NCBI RefSeq assembly: GCF_000336875.1
Contig: NZ_AOJK01000064.1
Coordinates: 149,080 to 195,499 of the forward strand
From: Halorubrum californiense DSM 19288
GTDB taxonomy: Archaea > Halobacteriota > Halobacteria > Halobacteriales > Haloferacaceae
Reading direction: 5' to 3'
DNA: 46,420 nt
Part shown: piece by piece, positions 1 through 42,762 of the stretch
Layout of the letters: each line of letters starts with the position of its first letter
Position numbering within the stretch: the stretch's first letter is position 1
The notes under the pieces: generated by a model
What the model was told of the DNA's origin: nothing
Databases searched by the model: none
The model's input: only the letters and a program-made list of their open reading frames with translations
Translations under genes and position numbers: made by a program

Positions 1-138
1 GCCTCACGCCTCCCCAGCCTCGTCGGTCGCCTCGCTTCGCTTCGGCGACCGACTCCCTCGCGCGTGCGACTCGCGGCCTTCCGGCCGCTCGTCGGCACGC
101 GCCGACCGCTTTGCGTCGTCTACATTTCTGCTTAAAAA
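1..138 (-). repeat. Dispersed hairpin repeat element, copy 1
   Basis: Read on the minus strand, this stretch has a TATA-like A/T run (131-138), then perfect inverted repeats at 91-106 (6-bp arms, 4-nt loop) and 73-88 (6-bp arms, 4-nt loop). A longer hairpin follows at 22-53, with 10-bp arms and a 12-nt loop. It ends in a purine-rich motif, GACGAGGCTGGGGAGG, running to the window edge. The long hairpin and the ending motif recur at 42526-42575 with a compensatory pair change. A looser relative lies at 46351-46420. The element may continue left of the window. Function unknown. Confidence 0.6.
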
Positions 139-42454: not shown

Positions 42455-42464
42455 ATTTATAAAC
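42455..42464 (+). promoter_or_regulatory. TATA-like box facing the repeat element
   Basis: ATTTATAAAC is the strongest TATA-like sequence in this spacer. Transcription from it in the plus direction would start near 42485, at the first hairpin of the element. No protein-coding gene begins there. Confidence 0.4.
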
Positions 42465-42487
42465 GAACCGCGGTGGCGCGCCTCCGA

Positions 42488-42560
42488 GCGGTCGCCGCCG
42501 GCGACCGCGAGGAGTCCGCGAGGGAGTCAGTCGCCGGAGCGAAGCGGAGGCGACTGACGA
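42488..42560 (+). repeat. Dispersed hairpin repeat element, copy 2
   Basis: Two hairpins: 42488-42508 (9-bp arms, 3-nt loop) and 42526-42558 (10-bp arms, 13-nt loop). The second matches the hairpin at 22-53, except that one G-C pair becomes A-T on both sides. It is followed by GACGAGGCTGGGGAGG, as in copy 1, and leads directly into the 57-nt tandem array. Confidence 0.65.
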
Positions 42561-42566
42561 GGCTGG

Positions 42567-42713
42567 GGAGGTGTTCGCCGCCGCCCTACGGACAGTCGAT
42601 TATAGCCGAGCAGCTGGGGCTTTGGAGGTGTTCGCCGCCGCCCTACGGACAGTCGATTATAGCCGATCGGCTGGGGCGTTGGCGGCGTTCACGGCCGATC
42701 TGCGGTCAATCAC
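42567..42713 (+). repeat. 57-nt tandem repeat array
   Basis: Two near-identical 57-nt units start at 42567 and 42624; a degenerate third starts at 42681. Each unit begins GGAGGTGTTCGCC and ends near AGCCGANCRGCTGGGGC. The half around AGCCG and GGCTGGGGCTTTGG is shared with the 54-nt array at 46224; the other half differs. Open frames through it are repeats of the same peptide and are probably meaningless. Confidence 0.8.
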
Positions 42714-42762
42714 GCATCGCCGGCGACCGGCACTCCGACTCCGATCTCCCCCAATCGCCTCC

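Follow-up and report, generated by a model that had tools for sequence, protein, structure and literature searches.

A dispersed modular stem-loop element in intergenic regions of Halorubrum chromosomes

The window analysed here, meaning the whole stretch of 46,420 nucleotides on contig C64 of the Halorubrum californiense DSM 19288 genome (3.68 Mb, 83-contig assembly), carries two copies of a folded, non-coding element on opposite strands. Copy A lies on the plus strand, where its 5′ boundary, basal stem and hairpin 1 (GCGGTGGCGCGCCTCCGAGC...GCGAGGAGTCCGCGAGGGA) occupy 42470..42525; this boundary is sharp across 63 copies, the stem covaries, and the segment corresponds to a covariance-model match at C64 191551-191657. 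Hairpin 2 follows at 42526..42558 (GTCAGTCGCC-GGAGCGAAGCGGA-GGCGACTGAC), with two-sided changes among copies in 7 of its 8 modelled pairs, and the conserved core GACGAGGCTGGGGAGG, found by 16-mer matching, spans 42556..42571. Alignment with full-length copies revealed that at 42572..42611 the core is fused to a tail unit, so that neither the GU-rich stretch nor any of the 3′ hairpin is left, while comparison of tail units placed two tail blocks (42612-42625 and 42669-42682, 57 bp apart) within 42612..42715. The orthologues of copy A in two related genomes, G281 and G295, are full length, so the window copy at 42470 derives from such a form by internal deletion, its core-tail fusion being what recombination between GGCTGGGG blocks is expected to leave. 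Just upstream of it, at 42456..42463 on the plus strand, is the box TTTATAAA, which is missing from most copies, and a similar block arrives with the element at locus L035.

Copy B is represented on the minus strand by its 5′ domain (1..109), as shown by the model match and by the sequences of loci L029 and L241, and its remainder runs leftward past the window (locus L029). Its hairpin 2, recognised by inspection, is GTCGGTCGCC-GAAGCGAAGCGA-GGCGACCGAC at 22..53, its core GACGAGGCTGGGGAGG was matched as a 16-mer at 9..24, and the N beside this core is the mark of an assembly join. A TATA-like TTTTTAAG (131..138, minus strand) stands about 26 nt upstream, with similar boxes in the orthologues of G004, G257 and G310. 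An additional copy was detected by the covariance model 132 bases past the right end of the window (C64:195631-195742). An earlier sequence-only reading of the window had described the hairpins at 42526-42558 (plus) and 22-53 (minus) as differing by one A-T versus G-C pair and as adjoining GACGAGGCTGGGGAGG, and both descriptions are accurate. It had also placed a TATA-like box 5′ of both hairpins; such boxes are indeed found there, but they are not equally placed, as one starts about 14 nt upstream of the boundary and the other is centred about 26 nt upstream. The reported hairpin is arm 2 of a larger modular intergenic element, so that the original observation was correct and far too small in scope.

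The complete element, as read from the stretches around core matches, is a modular, intergenic and non-coding unit of about 250 nt. Its modules are ordered from 5′ to 3′ as a basal stem with hairpin 1, a variable hairpin 2, the core GACGAGGCTGGGGAGG, a GU-rich stretch, a 3′ hairpin and tandem tail units. The 5′ boundary GCGGTGGCGCG is sharp, the information content of 63 copies being about 0.4 bits before the first G and 1.6-2.0 bits from there on, whereas the 3′ end is ragged and not defined. The basal stem (GCGCGTGC/GCACGCGC) encloses hairpin 1, in which a tandem GA/GA is near-invariant, and GAGGGA separates this part from hairpin 2. Directly after hairpin 2 comes the conserved core, which in the full-element reading is GACGAGGCTGGGGAGGYGTGAGG and is near-invariant, single-stranded and purine-rich, followed by the GU-rich stretch of variable length. 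A long branched 3′ hairpin is then opened by GGGACTCAAAGGGGCAG and closed by CTGGGGCTTTGG, with an opposed GGG/GGG loop, and the weaker GGTGTTCGCCGCCGATC after it is often followed by one to three tandem tail units.

Several peculiarities of individual copies were also observed. The lengths of the tail units are multiples of three (51, 54, 57, 60, 63 and so on) in 110 of 119 units from loci L009-L300, including those at 42612-42715 of the window; coding tails were considered and rejected, with a stop in the candidate frame in 39 of the 119 units and no codon-position signal. In three copies (L013 +3535, L028 +3504 and L064 -3185), the 3′ hairpin has an inner part that runs in the opposite direction to that of other copies and looks like the product of recombination between the inverted arms of the hairpin; together with the differing hairpin forms at orthologous sites, these inverted parts suggest exchange and inversion between arms. 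Nested within or beside the hairpins of several copies (e.g., L031, L026, L041, L059, L063 and L081) is a shorter palindrome (GTCGCCGGCG...CGCCGGCTGCCAGAGGGACC..GGTCCCTCGCTG), which hints at a second small dispersed repeat. At L027 and L021, repeated tRNA-like or tRNA-flanking stretches (CACCGGCCGAGATTTGAACTC...) 3′ of the copies replace the usual 3′ domain. Single N positions lie inside the copies at L013, L015, L024, L028, L030, L032, L036 and L029, several with duplicated sequence alongside; these are probably assembly joins, the repeats breaking the draft assembly and distorting some copies.

A substantial number of copies was obtained from the genome. The core 16-mer gave 10 matches at ≤3 mismatches in the window against 2.03 expected (none of 100 shuffles reached 10), and 118 matches at ≤2 mismatches in the genome, where 55 were exact and the reversed control gave 8. 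The covariance model R1 retrieved 98 copies at E ≤ 0.001, so the two to three copies first proposed fell 30- to 50-fold short. Applied to a sample of the class, model R1 was positive in all 22 Halorubrum genomes and gave fewer and weaker matches in some other genera and families; Haloparvum sedimenti contains the element by exact pattern. Copy numbers among genus-mates range from 11 to 157. Related elements of family f17 have the 5′ half and core in common and carry different hairpins, and some of them retain the AAAG-GGG.../...GGG-CTTT arrangement on different stems. At other f17 loci (including L118 and L120-L123), this 5′ half and core lead into another 3′ palindrome, AGTAGCTAGCT...AGCTAGCTACTG.

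Rfam 15 gave no match to the window at the gathering score and none at E ≤ 1 to the intact copies L035, L010, L037 and L044. In the open-access literature, searched by topic and by literal sequence string with subscription papers outside the search, no description of the element was found. Five partial matches were obtained from PLSDB plasmids, while phage records contained no match to the element and viral contigs no exact match to the 20-base core pattern; a virus-borne element was therefore rejected.

The fold was assessed over the 5′ domain and over the full length. In 63 diverse copies of the 5′ domain, 90.4% of cells pair versus 76.5% in shuffled controls, and the covariation score is 0.363 versus 0.137 when shuffled (0 of 500 shuffles reached it), with slid pairings giving ≤0.076. 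Two-sided changes occur in 17 of 25 pairs of the 5′ domain and at least two Watson-Crick types in 23 of 42 well-supported pairs of 65 full-length copies, although the copies share ancestry and these counts are therefore not independent events. Each of the 65 full-length copies folds more stably as the plus strand than as its complement, and over these copies G-U pairs outnumber A-C mismatches by 62 to 9. A symmetric double-strand cruciform would predict similar counts of the two, so this ratio indicates that one specific strand is folded, and we infer that the folded strand is either RNA or single-stranded DNA. The loops are mostly triloops, with C(GNA)G in 62 of the 103 triloops of the 5′ domain, whereas GNRA (three) and UNCG (none) tetraloops are almost absent. 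GCGAAGC is known as a DNA mini-hairpin of unusual stability and is the subject of papers such as PMC10527192, which keeps the single-stranded-DNA reading alive. A G-quadruplex built from the conserved GGGG tracts is not favoured, as it appears in the minimum-energy fold of only 9 of the 65 copies.

By a purpose-made ORF-scoring annotation, 71 of 73 copies are intergenic. Regions with the element are convergent in 24 cases and divergent in 6, versus 7 and 41 in neighbouring long intergenic regions without it, a comparison set that represents the neighbourhood of the copies and not the whole genome, and in which the element itself lengthens its region; the copy at 42470, lying between divergent genes, is an exception to this convergent preference. 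Copies between tandem genes are on the same strand in 17 cases and on the opposite strand in 22, and a cis role in 3′-UTRs was accordingly rejected. A TATA-like box was observed at -30 to -5 of the boundary in only 18 of 63 copies.

Within replicons, four few-contig genomes were informative. All 263 listed copies (69/69, 64/64, 55/55 and 75/75) are on the largest replicon, which makes up about 74%, 89%, 89% and 96% of these genomes, respectively; the chance of this under uniform placement is of the order of 1e-16, a guide only because the genome sizes are rounded and the copies are not independent. Copies occur all along the chromosome at median gaps of 27-35 kb, and the coefficient of variation of the gaps, 0.91-0.99, is close to random. 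None of the four genomes shows segregation of copies by orientation along its chromosome, and a replication-direction motif was rejected on this ground.

Syntenic loci reveal how the copies have come and gone. The locus at 42470 is filled at the same place in nine genomes including this one, shortened in at least two and empty in several; there, the copy in G004 is in reverse orientation and G310 is empty. Of the 13 species covered on both sides of a helicase locus, 11 carry a copy, and the 5′ flank is of two types. Locus L035 is filled in three cases and empty in seven, and the TATTTATAAA block is missing from the empty sites, showing that the block came with the element. The filled, empty, shortened and reverse-oriented states indicate that the element has spread. 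Paralogues in this genome are ≤92% identical over the full length, not counting a 100% pair whose two members, the window and a stretch that overlaps it, come from one place, so dispersal has not been recent in this genome and recent transposition was rejected. Inspection of the aligned 5′ and ragged 3′ ends revealed no terminal inverted repeats, and no clear flanking target duplication was visible by inspection, the filled and empty flanks of L035 being too diverged to fix the ends.

The sequence-only reading had offered two options, a structured RNA and a hairpin-bearing mobile repeat, and this joint proposal is supported by the number of copies, the covarying pairs and the syntenic placement. 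Of the things that it named as decisive, the analysis obtained further copies in this genome and many in every genus-mate searched, additional covarying pairs, and a syntenic site kept in several species. The covariance model that it suggested was built, with the 98 matches given above, and the search that it suggested in other haloarchaeal genomes was positive in all Halorubrum searched, with related forms in other haloarchaea.

In kind, though not in sequence family, the element has what is expected of BOX-, ERIC- or REP-type repeats, namely many dispersed and almost all intergenic copies, a conserved stem-loop with compensatory change (0.363 vs 0.137 shuffled) and presence/absence variation at orthologous sites; it appears to work like these repeats, and we claim no sequence membership in their families. 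The BOX elements of Streptococcus pneumoniae are intergenic, dispersed and modular, with covarying hairpins and one module whose number varies between copies. The present element shares all of these characters, including a variable module number, but differs in sequence and domain of life, in that its repeated module is the 3′ tail unit, and in its confinement to the largest replicon in four genomes. ERIC/IRU, the enterobacterial intergenic repeat units, are about 100-250 bp long and mostly palindromic, with filled and empty orthologous sites. The element resembles them in being intergenic and mostly palindromic with filled and empty orthologous sites, and differs in its two structural domains, purine core and tandem tails; no sequence relation is claimed. 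Enterobacterial intergenic repeat units of 127 bp have been mentioned (PMC2759123). REP/BIME sequences, associated with REP-associated tyrosine transposases, exceed about 100 copies per genome and are extragenic with strand-specific hairpins (PMC2817692). The roughly 100 extragenic copies per genome and the strand-specific hairpins found here are comparable, but the unit of about 250 nt is much longer than a REP unit of roughly 20-40 nt. The class I intergenic repeats of halovirus HF2, a virus of Halorubrum, are 56-58 bp and carry TATA boxes (PMC8707807), a length similar to that of the tail unit; however, the motifs given in that paper (TCTTTAAGTC and CGTCTNNTAGAG) differ, and phage records are without a match to the element.

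Taken together, the element is probably a haloarchaeal counterpart of BOX, ERIC and REP: a modular non-coding repeat, about 250 nt long, that dispersed over the main chromosomes of Halorubrum and whose copies were afterwards inherited, eroded and subject to exchange with one another. It is likewise likely to disperse slowly and non-autonomously, with a folded strand that matters while it is being copied or once it is transcribed. Only one strand would then act through the constrained fold, and we weigh RNA and, during copying, single-stranded DNA about equally for it; a protein of the host or borne by the element would move it; copies would persist where they are harmless, mainly between convergent genes; and recombination between GGCTGGGG blocks would lead to their loss, giving the window copy at 42470. 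Several points stand against this reading: neither terminal inverted repeats nor a clear target duplication was seen, the 3′ end is ragged, and paralogues of ≤92% identity show no recent movement; copy-by-copy selection on a cellular RNA would equally explain an intact fold that persists in place, and a mobile element would not usually be missing from secondary replicons. The undefined ends and the lack of secondary-replicon copies in four genomes argue against a simple transposon.

Four other readings were weighed. It is possible, though we hold this tentatively, that the copies form an undescribed class of multicopy structured haloarchaeal element, found only on the main chromosome, selected copy by copy and acting as a non-coding RNA or a folded single strand. 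More doubtful is a multicopy family of cellular non-coding RNA, in which each copy would give a plus-strand transcript with a two-domain fold and a conserved purine-rich core for protein binding or action in trans. The strand-specific covariation and wobble tolerance, the near-invariant, single-stranded core, the near-invariant tandem GA/GA of hairpin 1, the TATA boxes kept at some syntenic copies and the copy maintained at the helicase locus are consistent with it, but most copies are without a correctly spaced promoter. Mapped promoters of HF2 have boxes starting at -26 (PMC8707807), and with this spacing the boxes near the boundary are too close and would put the start inside the basal stem. 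The copies between tandem genes are not sense-biased, and the predominance of C(GNA)G triloops over RNA-type tetraloops also argues against such a family. We regard as improbable a DNA-level chromosome element, whose folded strand or conserved core would be bound by a protein in the service of nucleoid organisation or of main-chromosome segregation or replication; the confinement to the largest replicon and the chromosome-wide spread agree with it, whereas the absence of orientation segregation, the near-random spacing and the copy number of 11 to 157 among genus-mates do not. Very improbable is the last reading, an ordinary MITE derived from a known insertion sequence or else GC-rich hairpins brought together by chance, for although hairpins form easily in GC-rich genomes and the copies are short, dispersed and intergenic, chance is excluded by the exact 16-mers, the model matches and the covariation controls, and a MITE is opposed by two ends that are not inverted repeats of each other, by the lack of a flanking duplication clearly visible on inspection, and by the absence of viral and paucity of plasmid matches, where insertion sequences are common.

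About 100 strongly folded copies per chromosome, in every Halorubrum searched and belonging to no Rfam family, would amount to a large unannotated part of the genomes of a well-studied archaeal genus. The copies also look like trouble spots for recombination and assembly in practice. The element opens direct questions about BOX/ERIC-type repeats in archaea, the manner of their spread, their absence from secondary replicons and the folded strand as RNA.
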